A stretch of 64,000 bases of DNA from Hydra vulgaris (taxonomy: Eukaryota; Cnidaria; Hydrozoa; Anthoathecata; Hydridae). Numbering within the stretch: the stretch's first letter is position 1; each line of letters opens with the position of its first letter. This document shows, piece after piece, positions 1,338 through 60,004 of this stretch. The DNA is taken from contig NC_088928.1 in NCBI RefSeq assembly GCF_038396675.1, positions 17,633,501-17,697,500 of the forward strand, given 5' to 3'. The notes beneath the pieces are model-generated. The model was not told the origin of the DNA and ran no database searches. It saw only the letters and a program-made list of their open reading frames with translations. The position numbers were made by a program, and so were the translations under genes.

Positions 1338-3126
1338 TTATTGATCAGATTCGATATCCTCACAGGAATTGCTGTCAGCTGCTGAGCTATTGTGAAATGG
1401 TTTGTAAATCTTCACAAGTTTCATTGCCTTATCTGCACCAAGACGATTCCTGATCTTCGACCAGACAAATCCAAAGGTTGAAAACCATCTCTCAATTGAG
1501 GCTGAGCTAGCAGGACAGGAATGTAGAGAAGCTAGAAAGCTGCAGAAATTGGCAGAAACCTCTTTATCCCTTATTTGAGATCTAGTAACCTTTCCCTTCA
1601 TGATGTTCCATCATTCTGATGGAGAGATAACCTTCAGTGATTCTAAGAACATTTGCTTCGGGAACACCTCCCTGTCCTTCAAGTTAAACTTGTATAGTAA
1701 ACCCAAGAAATCAGGGTTCCTGTCCTCTAACCGTTGTTCTGCACTGTTTTCATTATCATTATCAATGAAGCTTTTGTAATCATCTACATAGCGATGATCA
1801 GTTATATAGGCCAAAATATGAAAGGGTTGTACAGCATCTTGAAATCTCTTCTTTATTGCATCATAGTATATGGATAGCTCTTTATCCTTTATCAATGAAT
1901 ACCAGATATGAACTGCGTCAGAGAGATGACAAGAATCACTCTGCATCTTGTCTAAGGCAATCCCAAATTTTTTTATTTGACTAAGAAGACGACTTGCCTC
2001 ATGTTTGATGGCTATATTCTCAATTATTCTTCCAATATTGGCTGGAAAATCTTCCATCTTCTCTCCATAGATCTCCATATAGAAGTTATAATTTTTCTGG
2101 TATGTCTCAATGCAGGCAACTTGAGAGTTCCAGCGTGTTTCATTTGGCAGCTGAGGCATACATCCACCTTTTTCCTTTAACAAACCGTGGGCCATATTCA
2201 CATTTCTAAAATATTTCTGAACTTCCACAACCTGTTTTAGAATTGTTGAAAAAGAATTGCAAATGTCTTTCTGTAGCAAATTCATATAGTGTGCATTACA
2301 GCCATATGTTAACATATCAGGATACTCTTGTTTGATCAGCTCTTTCATTTTCTTCATCTTAGCTTCATTGTCAGTGCAGACAGCAAATACAAACTTATTA
2401 TAATCATTTTTTATGCTAATTATAGCTTCATTGATGATTTTGAAGCAGTATTCTGCAGTTTTTTTTTCTGATCCTGAGTCAACTATGTTGTACAGATAAC
2501 TCTTTTTTCCATCATAAAATGAGTGAGTAATTATTGGGTCATTCCGAATACTAGACCATCCATCTTGACAAATTACCAACGTGTCTTTGGTTTCCAGTTT
2601 GTTCTTTATACCAGCTGACAGATCATCATAGACTTCATTTAATAGATCTCCACCCTGTTTCTTTCGGCTTGGTGGGACATACCCAGGACAAAGAAGAGAG
2701 CAAAGTTTCTGAAACTCACAATTTTCCACTGAATTAAAAGACATGTTAGAGCTGAAAAAAAACCGGGCAACTTGCTTGTCTATGGCATCTTTCTGATCAT
2801 TTGATGTTCTAACTACAAAGTGTTAAGCTACTACTTTTAAACCTTTTTGCTGGTGTGGAGCTGGACATAATAGATCCTTCGGAAATTGAAGTATCTGGCT
2901 CATTTGACAAGAGGCTAATATTGCTCATTGAGCTTCCAGGTCTTGGTTCTTGTTCATCAGTGTCCTTCTTTCTCTCTTTATACTTCTCCAAATGAATACG
3001 AATTCTTTCAATTTTTCCACTAATCTTCTCTGAACAATGGTCACACTGAACATTATTTTTGTCCCCTTCTATCTCACTGACCTCCTTTCACTCCCATCCT
3101 TTCTTCCTTCCACTTCCGAATGGCAT
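1338..3126 (-). pseudogene. hAT transposase (BED finger, DUF659, hAT dimerisation), disrupted
   Basis: Read 3126 to 1338. It starts with a MPFGSGRKK-type hAT N-terminus and a BED-like zinc finger (VQCDHC...HLEKYKERK). A DUF659/RNase H-like core follows, with CQDGWSS (first Asp), VCTDNEAK (second Asp) and YGCNAHYMNLL. The C-terminus has ASSASIERWFSTFG, the hAT dimerisation region that carries the Glu. Damage visible: an in-frame stop just after the N-terminus, a frameshift near 2815 between LTL and VVRTSNDQ, and a TGA at about 1608 where Trp is expected. All three acidic residues survive, but the gene cannot make full-length protein. The usual role is cut-and-paste transposition with 8-bp duplications. 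Confidence 0.88.
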
Positions 3127-17026: not shown

Positions 17027-17935
17027 ATGGATTTAGAAAATGAAGCTGTCAAAATTTATCAAAAATATATTGAAGAAGATCTTGATTTGCCAGTTTCACT
17101 AGCTGCAATTAAGACACTAATCCACATTATAGAGGTATCTAAAGCTGAAACAATGCAGGGATTAGATGGTGATTTGAATATTGTGATTAATTATCTTAAA
17201 GCCAATAAAGTAAGTTTAGATTCTGTAACATCTTTCACCTCTGGATGTGAATTGCTGAAACGCACTATAACTTTAAAAGCAAACGAGGCTCTCTTATCGA
17301 AAGACTTTTCTATAACCAAACAAGTCCTTGTAGAGGGTGGACTTTTATTTTTGAATAATGCTATAAATGCAAAATATAAAATTGCACATTTAAGTCAACA
17401 GTTTATTAAAGATGGCTCTGTCATTTTGACACATGCCAGTTCAAAAGTGGTTATTCAGTTACTAATTGAAGCATCATTACAAAATAAGCGTTTCACAGTA
17501 TTTTGCACAGAGACAATGCCTAACAAACAAGGTTGGAAGACACATAACATTTTAAAGAACAATGGTATTTCATGCAAAGTAATACTTGACTCTGCTGTTG
17601 GTTATATAATGGAACAAGTTAATATGGTGCTGTTGGGTGCTGAAAATGTGGTTGAGAGTGGTGGAATAATAAACAAAGTAGGAAGTTTCCAGTTAGCTGT
17701 TGTAGCAAAGGCAATGAACAAACCTGTTTATGTTGCTGCTGAAAGTTTTAAATTTGCACGAGTATATCCATTGAAACAGAAAGATATCTCAAACATATTT
17801 AAATATAAATCAAATGAAGACGGGCATCCCATGACTGATTACACGCCTCCGTCATACATTACTCTTCTATTCACAGACTTAGGAATTTTAACTCCTTCTG
17901 CTGTTAGTGATGAACTAATAAAGCTGTATATGTAA
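17027..17935 (+). CDS. EIF2B1: Translation initiation factor eIF2B subunit alpha
   Basis: Regulatory alpha subunit of the cytosolic eIF2B complex, which recycles eIF2-GDP to eIF2-GTP and senses phosphorylated eIF2-alpha. The 302-codon uninterrupted frame is close to the usual length of about 305. Family blocks are clear: the N-terminal helical AAIKTLIHII and GETIQGL-type (AETMQGLDGDL) segment, DGSVILTHASSKVV, the ESQP-like CTETMPNKQG, LDSAVGYIMEQVN, GAENVVESGGIINKVG, and the ending LLFTDLGILTPSAVSDELIKLYM. I chose the ATG at 17027 rather than the upstream in-frame start at 16979 because the acceptor AG lies between them and because MDLENEA fits the family's N-terminal length. The gene is intronless in its coding part. 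It is followed 349 bp later by the DPF gene on the same strand. Confidence 0.96.
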   Translation: MDLENEAVKIYQKYIEEDLDLPVSLAAIKTLIHIIEVSKAETMQGLDGDLNIVINYLKANKVSLDSVTSFTSGCELLKRTITLKANEALLSKDFSITKQVLVEGGLLFLNNAINAKYKIAHLSQQFIKDGSVILTHASSKVVIQLLIEASLQNKRFTVFCTETMPNKQGWKTHNILKNNGISCKVILDSAVGYIMEQVNMVLLGAENVVESGGIINKVGSFQLAVVAKAMNKPVYVAAESFKFARVYPLKQKDISNIFKYKSNEDGHPMTDYTPPSYITLLFTDLGILTPSAVSDELIKLYM

Positions 17936-18585: not shown

Positions 18586-21500
18586 GTACTAGCTTATAAT
18601 TTATTTTCATGTTTAGAATACTTAATTTTGATTATTTATTAAATAATTATAGTTTATTAATTAATGATAATTTATTAAATAATAATTAATTATTTATTAA
18701 TGATAGTTTATTAACAAATTGTAGTTTATTAGTTAATGGTAAATAATTAATGATAATTTATAGTTATAATGCATTAATGATAATGGCATTTAATTATGTG
18801 TTTAAAATGAATTATGTTACTCTGAATGATTAATTAGATAATAAAATGACATGATTATTGAGGATATTATTTATACTGATGATTAGAATCACAACTTAAT
18901 TTACATTGTTTAGACTTTGAAAAGATTTTTGGAGATGATTCCAACTCATTTTCAAGAGAAGCATTTCATGTACCATCTACTCCTGTGAGCACTTTAAATC
19001 TCAGTAATATTGATCAAGAATATTATGGAGATGAAGCATTTGATTCTGAGTTTGATAGTGATGACGAGTTTGTGAGGAAAAAAAAACGTAAGAATAAACT
19101 AAAGGTATGTAATTTCATTTTTATTAAATGTTATTTATGTAATCATAACTTTTTTTGTATAATTTCATTTTAATTTTCTAAAGTAAGATTTTTAATTATA
19201 TTTACTTTTTGTAAGTTAACAAACAAGAACACTCTTTTTTATCTTTAATTTTACGTTTTTGTTCAGAAAAAAATCATAGGCCATGATAACAAGTTTAGTA
19301 TGGGGATTACAATATTATAAATATTACTCATTTTTCACATTTATCAGTATTTCTCAAGATATCTTGAGTAACTATCAAAATTATCCTCGTTAAAAAAACA
19401 ACTCATTTTTCTAACTTATTATAAATTTGAATATATAGGAATACACAGAGCTATTGCAAGTTGATTTTAATGAAAAAATAATAACTGCAGCAGGTATAGT
19501 AATGACATTAGTAAATGTTTGTTTAAATATTTTTGAAAGTTGTCTTTCCGAAGAAGTGTAAAACACTTTCTGTGATTTTCAACAACTTATAGCACACTTT
19601 GCTTGCTTTTTTCATCTTTTGTGAGGGACGATAAAAAGTCATGTATCAATTTTACACCTCTCATAGCAATATCATTAACAACTTAATTGTTTTTTAGAAA
19701 TTTCATTGCTTTAAAGATAGTCTTTATTCCCTATCCAAGTTTGCGCTGTAGTTTTCAGATATTCAGTGTTCTCAATAAAAGTTTCAAACAGAAGCCAAGA
19801 GTTTTCTCCAATCAACGATGGAATTTTTGTATTTTCTGTCACTTCATTTTCTGTCACAGCTTTTTTGAAAACAATGAAAAAACTGCAATCTCCTTGGTTA
19901 AATACCAAAAATGATTTTTAAATATTCTTGAGGTCCTTTCTGATATTTTCTTGTTGATGACTTTGAAGTCCTGTTACTCATTGAAAAGTTTCATGTCATT
20001 GAAAGGAGTGTAAACTCTAATGGGCCATGCTAACCAGTGCTTGACATACACAAGATCATTAAAAAGACATACAGTATTGGACAAAACATTTGCAACCAAC
20101 ATTGAACAATGCTAAAAAGTGTTCCTAATTTTACATGTCTTAAAAACGAAACGAATTATACTACCACAGCAAACAATTCAGGAGTCTGGAGTCATAGCAT
20201 GCCATGACATGAGCAATCAGCTGACAGGTGACAGTGCACAGGCAGAATTTCGTTGACAAGTGCCATTTTGCAGCAGACAAAACAAGTGCAACCTTTTTGG
20301 TTTGTTTCATTTTTTTAAGTCTGGTCCGTGTCAACGTCCCGGAAGTTTTTTAATAATTAAAGGAAGTATCCAGAAGTTTCCAGAAGCATGCAGAAGCTTC
20401 CAGAAGAAGCATCTGGAAGCATCCGGTAGAATCCAGAAATATCCAGAAACATTCAGAATGCATCCAGAACATCTGGACGCATCCAGAAGCTTCCAGAAGC
20501 ATTGAAAAGAAGCATCTAGAGTCTTCCAGAACAGGTTCACACAGGTTCATTTTACTATATAAGAGACATGTAAATCGACATGTAATTCAGTCAGTATATG
20601 GAAGTCAATCAGTCAGTATTATCAAGACAGTTTATCGAAGTGAGTTTTATCAAAGTGTTTTATCGAAGAACATCAATACAAGAAGTGAAATACAACAAGT
20701 GTTTCACTACATCAATAAAGTCCACATCCAACCAAGACGTAAGTGGAATGTCACAAAAAAGTATTTGTGATAAATATCGCATGAAAAAATGGACTGTATC
20801 AAGACTATGTTCCAAATATCGTTCTACGGGGAAGTTGGCAGCAGATAACAAAGGTGGAAGACCACGTTCCACCACTTCTAGAGAGGGTTCTATGATCGTC
20901 AGATCCGTCAAGAAGGATCCCTGGATATCATCAGTCGAGATACAAAAATAATTGGAGCTGCCTGTATCGGACCAAACAATCAGGCGACGTGCTGTTGAAG
21001 CCGGATTGTTTTCTCGACGCCGTGCAAAGAAACCGCTGATTTCACTAAAATACCAGAAGAAAAGACTCCTGTTTGCTACATCTCATATTGACTGGAATGT
21101 GCAGAAATGACGAACTGTCCTGTTCATGAATGTCCTGTCCTGTGATGAATCGAAGTTCAACATCATTGGGAGCAATGGCGTTTGCCGTGTACGTCGACCG
21201 GCCGGAAAACGCCTCGATTTATGTTACTGCCATAAGACCGTGAAGCATGGTGGAGACATTGTAATGGTCTGGGGGTGTTTTTCTGCTAACGGCCTAGATC
21301 CAATACATCGAAACGATGGAATAATGGACCGTTTCATGTATAAAAATATCCTGAAAGATGTTATGTTACCACATGCTGAATGGAATATGCCAATAAAATG
21401 GGTTTTTCAGCAAGTCAACGATCCGAAACACACTGCAAAAGTAGTCAAGCAGTGGTTTCAAGACAACCACCTATCAGTGATGGATTGGCCGTCCTAATCT

Positions 21501-38433: not shown

Positions 38434-38622
38434 AAGTCTAATTAATCTCATCAGTATAAAGAAGCCAACGCTAATCTAGTCAATGTGAAGGGACCAACGC
38501 TAATCTCATCAAAATGATGGACCCAACACTAATCTCATCAATATGAAGAACCCGACACTAATCTCATCAATAAGAAGGAACCAACACTAATCTTATCATA
38601 TGAAGTAACCAACACTAATCTT
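38434..38622. repeat. 29-bp tandem repeat, about 6 copies
   Basis: Imperfect units of the form CCAACACTAATCTCATCAAT followed by ATGAAGGA, with substitutions in every copy. Units touch without unique spacers, so it is a minisatellite. Confidence 0.92.
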
Positions 38623-38998
38623 TTTTTTAACTCGTAAAAGACTAAATCAAAAAATAGCATGATAAAAAAAATTTGTTATGAAGCTAGAAAGCTAAATCCC
38701 ACCGGGCATAGACTATTTTTAATTTCAGTAACGAATGGAAAATTGATTTTTAATAGAAACGTTCTTTCTTGAAACAACAAGTTTTATTTTACTATAATAA
38801 GGTACAAAATCAGTACAATAGAATCGATTGCAAAAGATTTTATTTAATATTATTTAACATTTATTAGATAATTGACTTTCTCTTAAACTCATTCAGAAAC
38901 AGTCAGAAACAGAGAATCTAATATCCTCCAAAGTACTTTGAAAAAAAAAAAAAAATTAACATATAGTTATAAAAAAAAAAAAAAAGGTAATAAAAGAA

Positions 38999-39427
38999 AT
39001 GTCAAAAATAAGCAAACCAATGTGGTACGTGTTTAATGCGATACTGTTTCTAAATATTTTTGTGATTTTTTCAATCAACTCACAGCCACTTCGCGATGAT
39101 GAAGACACTGATAACGGAATAAATGGAGACATTACTAAAATAGAAAATGAACAATATAGCAGTCAAATTTCTGGTTATAAGAAATTCAAAAATCAAGCAG
39201 AATTAAAAACTAACTCCATTAACCATTATATACCCTTTTTTTTACCACAGCCGAAGACCTTTCGCGACGTTAAATCTCACTCTGATTTAACAGCATCCGA
39301 CGATGATGAATCAAGAAAATCAATCAAATTTTCCCAAGAAAACAGGTATGGACAAAAAAAATCTAACACCAATCCATTTATATTTAAAGGACATAAACAT
39401 GGTGACCCAACCCGTCAAAAGTCTTAA
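38999..39427 (+). CDS. Secreted precursor, Hym-176/Hym-357-like neuropeptide candidate
   Basis: 142-aa single-exon ORF. The N-terminus has a hydrophobic signal sequence (about residues 9-28, FNAILFLNIFVIFSINS) followed by an acidic spacer. Two internal segments resemble Hydra neuropeptides. IPFFLPQPKT (about residues 79-88) aligns with Hym-176 (APFIFPGPKV-amide). NPFIFKGHKHG (about 125-135) aligns with Hym-357 (KPAFLFKGYKP-amide), with the final Gly placed as amide donor. The two types are known to share one precursor in the Hym-176 gene family, so finding both here in one secreted protein is strong circumstantial evidence. Odd points: neither peptide has a clean dibasic C-terminal site (Thr follows the first, Gly-Asp the second), so processing is uncertain. 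Which paralogue this is, or whether it is undescribed, cannot be told from the sequence alone. Confidence 0.7.
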   Translation: MSKISKPMWYVFNAILFLNIFVIFSINSQPLRDDEDTDNGINGDITKIENEQYSSQISGYKKFKNQAELKTNSINHYIPFFLPQPKTFRDVKSHSDLTASDDDESRKSIKFSQENRYGQKKSNTNPFIFKGHKHGDPTRQKS

Positions 39428-57726: not shown

Positions 57727-58911
57727 TTATAAATAGTGAGTACTTATAAATCTTCTTTAAATAAATTGGACAAAATTTAACGACCACTTTCAAATCTTTA
57801 ATTTGCACTTATTAAAAATAATAATCCTTTTTTTTTTTTAACTGTCCTAATTGCTTATTAAGTTGGCTATAAAATAAAATGTCGAAACCTGAGTTTCGAT
57901 ATCAAATAAACATTTATTTTTTGAATTGCAATAAGGATACAAAAATATTGCAAAAATGCGTGCAAAGATCGAAGAAAAAGACAGATACGCGGCTCTTGTA
58001 TTAAAAGAAGAAGGCTATAGCATCAGACAAATAGCAGAAAAGCTCGGAAGGTCTCACTCTTGCATTATCAACGATACAAAGAGAACCGGTCAATTAATGA
58101 TCGTCATAGGACTGGACGCAATTAAATTTCAGATGACCGTGATGTTCGCTCGTTAGTGAGATTAATGAAAGAAAACAGACAAGCATCATCTACAGACTTG
58201 TCTACGAAATGGACACTGTCAAATGGTCTGAAAGCAAGCCCTAGAACTGTGCGAAGGGTCCTCCACAATTTAAATTATTTATGGCGTGTTGCTGCAAAAA
58301 AACCACGCTTAAATAAAAAATAAAAATTTGCCAGGAAAGAGTGGTGCAAACTACATAAAAATTGGTCAACAGATCAGTGGAGCCGTGTGGTCTTTAGTGA
58401 TAAAATGAACGTTGAGGTAGAAAACAGAAAAGGTCGTGTAATGTTGCGTAGACTTCCAAGCGAACGGTTCGATGAATCATGCATTTTGAAACGAACAAAA
58501 CAAGGCAGTGGTTCAATAGGCCTTTGGGCCTGTATGAGTGCCTGTAGAATTGGCGTTTTTCATTTATTCGATGGTAGACTCAACAAAGAAAAGTACATCG
58601 AAATTTTGGAAAACTCGCTTATTCCTAGCATTGATTTATGGCAGTTGCACGATGGATTTATTTTCCAGCAAGATAATGCGCTGTGTCATAAAGCGCATGT
58701 TGTTAGCGATTGGTTTAATTCTAATAAAATTCAAGTGCTTTCATGGCCTGCCAATAGTCCAGACTTGAATCCAATAGAGAATTTATGGTCATGGCTTGAT
58801 CACAAGCTTGGTAAAGAACAACTTTACAATTTGGAAGATTTGAAATCTTCTATCTCTCATCATTTGAAAAATGTGCCTGATAAAGTAATCAAAACATACA
58901 GTCGACCTCAA

Positions 58912-60004
58912 AATATTATTATCAAAGCTTAACATGTATGGCATAAGGGGTAGAACGAACAAATGGATAGAAAGCTACTTAGATAAACGTGTGCAATCTA
59001 TATACTATGGAGATAATAAACTCTCTAATCCTTCCATATTAAAGTGTGGTGTTCCTCAGGGTTCAATACTTGGGCCTTTGCTTTTTTTAATCTACGTTAA
59101 CGATCTCTATCGGGCATCAAAAAGAATTTCAACTATAATGTTTGCTGATGATAACAACTTTTTTATCTCCGGAAAAATTATAAACGAACTGTGCGTAGAA
59201 ATGAATCAAGAATTAGAAAAAATTTCTGGATGGTTTAGGGCAAATAAACTTTCTATAAACTCAAGTAAAACGAAGTTTTCTTTATTTCATCCTTCTTATA
59301 AAAAAAAGAAGTTGAATCTTCTCGTCCAAAATTGTTTAATTAAAAATAGAGAAATAAGTAAGGATAATGTTACTAAATTTTTAGGTGTTTTTATTGACAA
59401 AAATTTAAATTGGAATAAACATATCGCCTATTTAAGTAGTAAAATATCTAAAAGTATCGGAATAATATACCGATCACGCCATTTATTGAAAAAGCCGCTA
59501 CTCAAACAAATCTACTATAGCTTTGTTCAAAGTTATTTAAATTACGGTAATACAGCATGGGGTAGTACCTATCAAAGCAAACTAGAACCTCTCCATCGTA
59601 AACAGAAGCATGCTATATGAGTAATTAATTTTAAAAATAAAAACGAACACACAAAGCCTCTTTTTGAGCAGATGTCTTTACTAACATTGTTTGAACTAAA
59701 TATATATAATGTTCTAAGTCTTATGTATAATAGTAAAATGCAAAAAACTCCTTCAATTTTCTATAGTCTTTATAAACAAAAGCCCGAGTATAAATACCTG
59801 TTGCGCACAAATAGTACCCTTTTTGAGCCTTCATGCAAAACTAAGCTTGTGCAATTTAAAATTACTTATCGTGCACCTCGTATCTGGAATAAGTTTTTAT
59901 TACTTAATCAAAATATTATTAACCTTGAAAACTTAAATGGCTTTAAAAAAACTATTAAAAAGAGTATTTTAAAGTATAAAAATTTACTTACTGATTTTTT
60001 CTAA
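58912..60004 (+). pseudogene. LINE C reverse transcriptase, C-terminal half
   Basis: LLSKLNMYGIRGRTNKWIES, CGVPQGSILGPLLFLIYVND, TIMFADDNNFF (FADD), WFRANKLSINSSKTKFSLF, VTKFLGVFIDKNLNWNKHI, AWGSTYQSKLEPLHRKQKHA, then a single TGA at 59619 and continued coding to APRIWNKFLLL and the TAA at 60002. With just one stop in 360 codons it is the best preserved LINE in the window. Confidence 0.9.

Follow-up and report, generated by a model that had tools for sequence, protein, structure and literature searches.

The Hym-176 precursors of Hydra have been published as a family of five genes, Hym-176A to Hym-176E (PMC7266959). Hym-176C and Hym-176D are expressed in the peduncle, Hym-176B in the body column, Hym-176A in the hypostome, body column and peduncle, and Hym-176E in the tentacle, where the expressing neurons form subset VII, equated with ec1B (PMC8144215). 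The ec1B neurons have been suggested to be part of the CB circuit (PMC8324302); a Hym-176E reporter line could not be made in PMC8144215, so that these neurons went unrecorded there. Hym-357 strongly induces contraction of the tentacles and body, presumably via other neurons (PMC5614986). For Hym-176E, NPFIFKGHKH is given as the putative peptide in the Figure 2 legend of PMC7266959, and the same paper states that the gene ‘appears not to have Hym-176- and Hym-357-related peptides’. PMC8638164 prints the immature KPAFLFKGYKPGD, argues against processing at its Gly-Asp ending and takes Hym-357 itself to be non-existent.

Here, we describe a window of 64,000 nucleotides of the Hydra vulgaris genome (C9:17633501-17697500) that contains a precursor gene of this family. 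The literature already covers the gene, its second peptide and its expression, and the finding, though real, is not new; what the comparison within one genome adds is the arrangement of the five genes and the state of the two peptide units in each.

Results

The initial annotation of the window had described a 142-aa open reading frame (ORF) with a signal sequence, followed by IPFFLPQPKT (here unit 1) and then NPFIFKGHKHG (unit 2 including its Gly, residues 125-135, 39371-39403), and translation and hydropathy bear out both the coordinates and the order (Table 1). The frame is uninterrupted from ATG to TAA, with an upstream in-frame stop at 38957. The most hydrophobic 11-mer of the protein covers residues 14-24 (mean 2.91, against 0.58 for the best window starting past residue 40), and the protein is devoid of Cys; on hydropathy, this peak together with the absence of Cys fits a signal sequence. 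Paired basic residues occur three times in the protein, at 61, 106 and 120, and the pair at 120-121 directly precedes unit 2, so that it could help to free the start of that peptide. Neither G-K nor G-R occurs anywhere in the 142 aa. The calculated MH+ is 1223.68 for NPFIFKGHKH-amide, 1281.69 with the Gly retained and 1086.63 for IPFFLPQPK. In a Pfam scan of the ORF the only match was TAP35_44 (E = 0.071), whose 13.6 bits fall short of the cut-off of 25, and we rejected it as a chance match. Approximately 270 bases of 5' flank can be aligned across all five genes, with a larger gap in Hym-176B, and are perhaps the promoter and 5' leader. A short tandem array of six copies with a period of 28-29 bases lies at 38454-38622, approximately 380 bases upstream of the start codon.

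Table 1 Features of the Hym-176E locus (window coordinates) and of its four paralogues in the same genome
Feature	Position	Strand	Basis or content
Hym-176E preprohormone, 142 aa + stop	38999..39427	+	Four paralogues in own genome; peptide identical to published Hym-176E (PMC7266959)
5' flank alignable with paralogues (start coordinate counted by hand from the alignment)	38729..38998	+	161/238 aligned bases identical to the Hym-176A flank
Probable signal sequence, hydrophobic N-terminus, residues 1-28 (cleavage point estimated)	38999..39082	+	Hydropathy; 17/28 residues identical to Hym-176A
Acidic spacer, residues 29-77	39083..39229	+	30/48 aligned columns identical to Hym-176A
Unit 1, IPFFLPQPKT, residues 78-87, positional homologue of Hym-176 (APFIFPGPKV)	39230..39259	+	Alignment, shuffles
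Phe codon at the place of the amide-donor Gly that precedes Arg in A, B, C and D; amidation-site relic	39260..39262	+	Alignment
Unit 2, NPFIFKGHKH, residues 125-134, Hym-357/Hym-690 counterpart, probable active peptide	39371..39400	+	Alignment; PMC7266959
Gly-Asp after unit 2: amide-donor Gly (Gly 135), then acidic residue	39401..39406	+	As in paralogues A, B and C
C-terminal tail DPTRQKS, seven residues	39404..39424	+	Tails of A, B and C also seven residues, beginning D-Q-T-Q
Hym-176A	C9:17758424-17758831	-	Peptides APFIFPGPKVGR and KPAFLFKGYKPGD
Hym-176B	L005	+	Peptides KPLKVMKMGR and KPAFLFKGYKPGD
Hym-176C	L003	-	Peptides YPFYNQNPKIGR and KPLYLFKGYKPGD
Hym-176D	L004:1483-1876	+	FMIFQGPKVGR; TAA ahead of the place of the second unit

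Residues 125-134 of the ORF match the published Hym-176E peptide letter for letter. Given this identical NPFIFKGHKH, we are almost certain that the gene is Hym-176E, matched to the published gene of Hydra magnipapillata/vulgaris by its peptide; in that comparison no difference was found, and the five-gene set is the same.

A six-frame search of the same genome (911.5 Mb, 15 contigs) with the ORF protein scored 10 candidates and gave five matches at E <= 0.001, the gene and its four paralogues, which all fall between 17618767 and 17758831 of contig C9. Queries with Hym-176A (7 candidates scored) and Hym-176D (6 scored) led at E <= 1 to the same five places and to no sixth, in a search that scores only the best candidates and could miss a more distant Hym-176 copy. 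The five paralogues span 140 kb (C9:17618764-17758831) in the order C(-), E(+), B(+), D(+), A(-). Colinearity of this order with body position was considered and is not seen. The paralogues were named A, B, C and D by comparing their encoded peptides with the published gene contents (PMC7266959), and the peptides agree save for one residue each in the Hym-176C and Hym-176D peptides compared, which read YPFYNQNPKI and FMIFQGPKV here, as against YPFYNQNPKV and FMIFVGPKV printed for H. magnipapillata; given these differences, this genome probably comes from another strain. The ec5 forward primer for t6329aep (PMC8324302) matches the Hym-176C locus (L003) exactly, as do the initial 12 bases of its reverse partner, and the qPCR primer pairs given there for ec1A and ec1B have no match in the window or in loci L001-L014 (15 sequences). 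The Hym-176D precursor (L004:1483-1818) contains QGPKVG and QSPSNKVG. These would yield the two peptides listed in PMC8638164 for H. vulgaris Gene#3, pQGPKVamide and pQSPSNKVamide; judged by these strings, Gene#3 is probably Hym-176D.

Aligned to the four paralogues, Hym-176E is 57% identical to Hym-176A, 43% to D, 41% to B and 40% to C, and in the genome search the match to Hym-176A covers residues 1-140 (57%, E = 6.3e-37). The alignment extends over the whole precursor, signal and spacer included (Table 1), and it confirms the membership of the Hym-176 precursor family that had been proposed from the window alone. The proposal had left open a divergent or an undescribed paralogue: divergent holds at 57% identity to Hym-176A, and undescribed does not, the peptide being that of the published Hym-176E. 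Hym-176A and Hym-176E share the same order of signal, acidic spacer, unit 1, spacer, unit 2, Gly-Asp and seven-residue tail, and differ in that the former reads APFIFPGPKV-GR (amidatable) and KPAFLFKGYKP-GD and the latter IPFFLPQPKT-FR, where the Gly is missing, and NPFIFKGHKH-GD. At 40-43% identity and in the same cluster, Hym-176B, C and D have a similar layout of signal and spacer, whereas unit 1 of B is divergent (KPLKVMKM-GR), unit 2 of C is Hym-690 and D has a stop before unit 2.

The unit 1 region aligns without gaps (A, NHY-APFIFPGPKVG-RDV; E, NHY-IPFFLPQPKTF-RDV), and unit 1 of Hym-176E is hence homologous to Hym-176, with the amide-donor Gly turned into Phe. The PKV/PKI-Gly-Arg amidation signal is absent and replaced by PKT-Phe-Arg. 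This signal does not define membership, given that Hym-176B, whose unit 1 is not PKV, and Hym-176E are both counted in the published family (PMC7266959). In the unit 2 region Hym-176A reads KPAFLFKGYKPGD and Hym-176E reads NPFIFKGHKHGD, and the residues after the Gly are DQTQKNL in A, DQTQKKS in B, DQTQMHF in C and DPTRQKS in E. The tail of C has neither Lys nor Arg, so that a cut behind such a residue is impossible between its peptide and the protein end. The FKG-x-K-x-Gly-Asp unit with its seven-residue tail is present in A, B, C and E and missing in D. The initial annotation had called the missing basic residues after the Gly atypical; their absence is real, but Gly-Asp is common to A, B, C and E and is therefore a trait of the family rather than a peculiarity of Hym-176E. 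What is specific to Hym-176E by the alignment, and had not been separated out before, is the loss of the amide-donor Gly after unit 1. Hym-176D has the opposite loss, by a stop before unit 2; the Hym-176A protein match extends past this TAA to A residue 125, and the D frame after the stop thus still resembles a degraded unit 2. In contrast to the quoted statement in PMC7266959, the alignment places relatives of both Hym-176 and Hym-357 in Hym-176E at the expected positions, with unit 1 lacking an amidation site.

Against the 11-residue Hym-357 query AFLFKGYKPGD, unit 2 takes the top place across the six frames of the window with a score of 41 (next best, 26), a score reached by 0/200 first-order Markov copies of the window (maximum 34) and by 0/20000 shuffles of residues 29-142. 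At the scale of the whole window unit 1 alone is weak: its score of 26 against Hym-176 is surpassed at one unrelated place (28) and reached by 39/200 Markov copies, a similarity without significance there. Judged within the ORF it exceeds chance: its score was reached in 11/20000 shuffles of residues 29-124 as an 11-mer and in 2/20000 as a 10-mer, and it falls at the Hym-176 position in the paralogue alignment. Six peptide queries found no second Hym-176-like place in the window, where places outside the ORF score at most 28. The longest ORF among 20 Markov copies is 138 aa; the length of 142 aa alone is thus weak evidence, and it is homology that decides.

Selection was evaluated by NG86 counts on a protein-guided codon alignment, for paralogue pairs only, with 2,000 bootstrap replicates. 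For E-A, dN (0.267) is below dS (0.830), with omega = 0.32 (bootstrap 2.5-97.5%, 0.17-0.56; 0/2000 at or above 1), and omega ranges from 0.32 to 0.67 across the ten paralogue pairs, with the highest value for E-C. Over IPFFLPQPKTFRDV of Hym-176E, dN against Hym-176A is 0.41 (14 codons), higher than for the signal (0.23) or the first spacer (0.21), and dN for A-D over this stretch is 0.12 (12 codons). This is no more than a hint that constraint on unit 1 is relaxed in Hym-176E, in a comparison of few codons with the unit 1 synonymous sites saturated for E-A. At unit 2, dN is 0.31 for E-A, 0.05 for A-B and 0.15 for A-C, and Hym-176E is the more diverged form there too. A tree of the five proteins pairs Hym-176E with Hym-176A at 83/85 support on a branch that is not starred.

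Elsewhere in the window, an uninterrupted 302-aa ORF at 17027-17935 (+) matches Pfam PF01008 (IF-2B family, E = 1.2e-64) and is probably eIF-2B subunit alpha. Transposon-like ORFs lie at 1611-2744 (-), 20598-21497 (+), 58405-58932 (+) and 58934-59620 (+), among which DUF659 (presumably hAT-related), DDE_3 and reverse transcriptase exceed the Pfam cut-offs; 20598-20951 has HTH families below the cut-offs only, and 21126-21497 was judged by eye. Rfam gave nothing in the window at gathering scores.

Discussion

We think it likely that Hym-176E gives rise to NPFIFKGHKH, and that this peptide is released by tentacle neurons and acts in the tentacle. The precursor would enter the secretory path by its N-terminal signal, unit 2 would be cut out as NPFIFKGHKH, probably amidated from Gly 135, and the peptide would be released by the tentacle ectodermal neurons of subset VII/ec1B, where it would most likely promote contraction by analogy with Hym-357. 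From the expression in ec1B and the tentacle and the contraction induced by Hym-357, we infer a role of NPFIFKGHKH in tentacle contraction. Its cleavage and amidation are likewise inferred, and so is a loss of function of unit 1; this Hym-176 homologue without an amide-donor Gly would probably no longer be a normal amidated transmitter. The start of the peptide fits cnidarian practice as described in PMC8638164, where acidic residues or N, S or T often stand before peptides starting with Q, X-P or X-P-P, and an X-P start counts as protection: NPFIFKGHKH starts with N-P and follows Asn-Thr. An FRamide precursor is highly expressed in ec1B (PMC13004499), and another peptide may therefore carry the action of these cells. 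In the papers cited here, no peptide from the Hym-176E precursor is shown to exist.

It is very improbable that the gene is an undescribed sixth Hym-176 paralogue instead of Hym-176E. The comparison with the published gene is made through the peptide only, but all ten residues are identical to those in PMC7266959, and the E, A and D queries each give, among the best candidates scored, five copies, four of which are A-D, leaving this gene for Hym-176E; on the identical peptide and the five-gene count we reject an undescribed paralogue. A weightier objection concerns maturation. If unit 2 were never released, Hym-176E would be a decaying or a non-neuropeptide secreted protein, as might be argued from its lack of G-K and G-R, from the loss of the Gly after unit 1 and from the rejection of the Gly-Asp ending in Hym-176A by PMC8638164, an argument that would apply to NPFIFKGHKH as well. 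We nevertheless regard non-release as unlikely. The frame is open, with an E-A omega of 0.32 and no bootstrap replicate of 2,000 at or above 1, four of the five genes (A, B, C and E) retain the FKG-x-K-x-GD core and its seven-residue tail, NPFIFKGHKH does not differ between this genome and the H. magnipapillata gene in print (PMC7266959), and Hym-357 itself came out of a screen for myoactive peptides (PMC7266959, PMC5614986). Because the Gly-Asp ending and the tail length persist in four genes, the balance tips towards release of unit 2.

The proposal that NPFIFKGHKH is the active product also has to be set against a second product of the same precursor, a non-amidated unit 1 (for example, IPFFLPQPK) that works without an amide. 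A contraction-inducing non-amidated Hydra peptide is known from another gene (PMC12440616), and unit 1 keeps an X-P start and the PK core, with Arg 89 two residues after Thr 87. The higher E-A dN at IPFFLPQPKTFRDV than in the signal and spacer, and than for A-D, suggests relaxed constraint instead, and we consider such a peptide improbable. A wider reading, which we offer tentatively and as the less probable option, is complementary decay of a two-peptide precursor, both by peptide and by body region: Hym-176D would have lost unit 2 (foot) and Hym-176E the amidation site of unit 1 (tentacle), unit 1 of the latter being a relic or a new non-amidated peptide, and unit 2, in the four genes that retain it, would be matured via Gly-Asp by a cut independent of basic residues. 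The second spacer of Hym-176D may in turn reflect the gain of another amidated peptide.

The string IPFFLPQPK is absent from open-access papers by text search, Hym-176 is not mentioned in PMC4346854, and among the literature matches listed neither the 140-kb cluster nor the opposite losses of Hym-176D and Hym-176E are stated, although the original Noro et al. 2019 may contain them. The cluster and the opposite losses are small additions to known biology. Hydra neurobiologists may find it useful that the five genes are clustered, and that Hym-176E and Hym-176D have lost opposite halves of an apparent ancestral two-peptide precursor while differing in the body region of their expression. The Gly-Asp ending in four genes bears on the printed disagreement over whether Hym-357 exists as a peptide.
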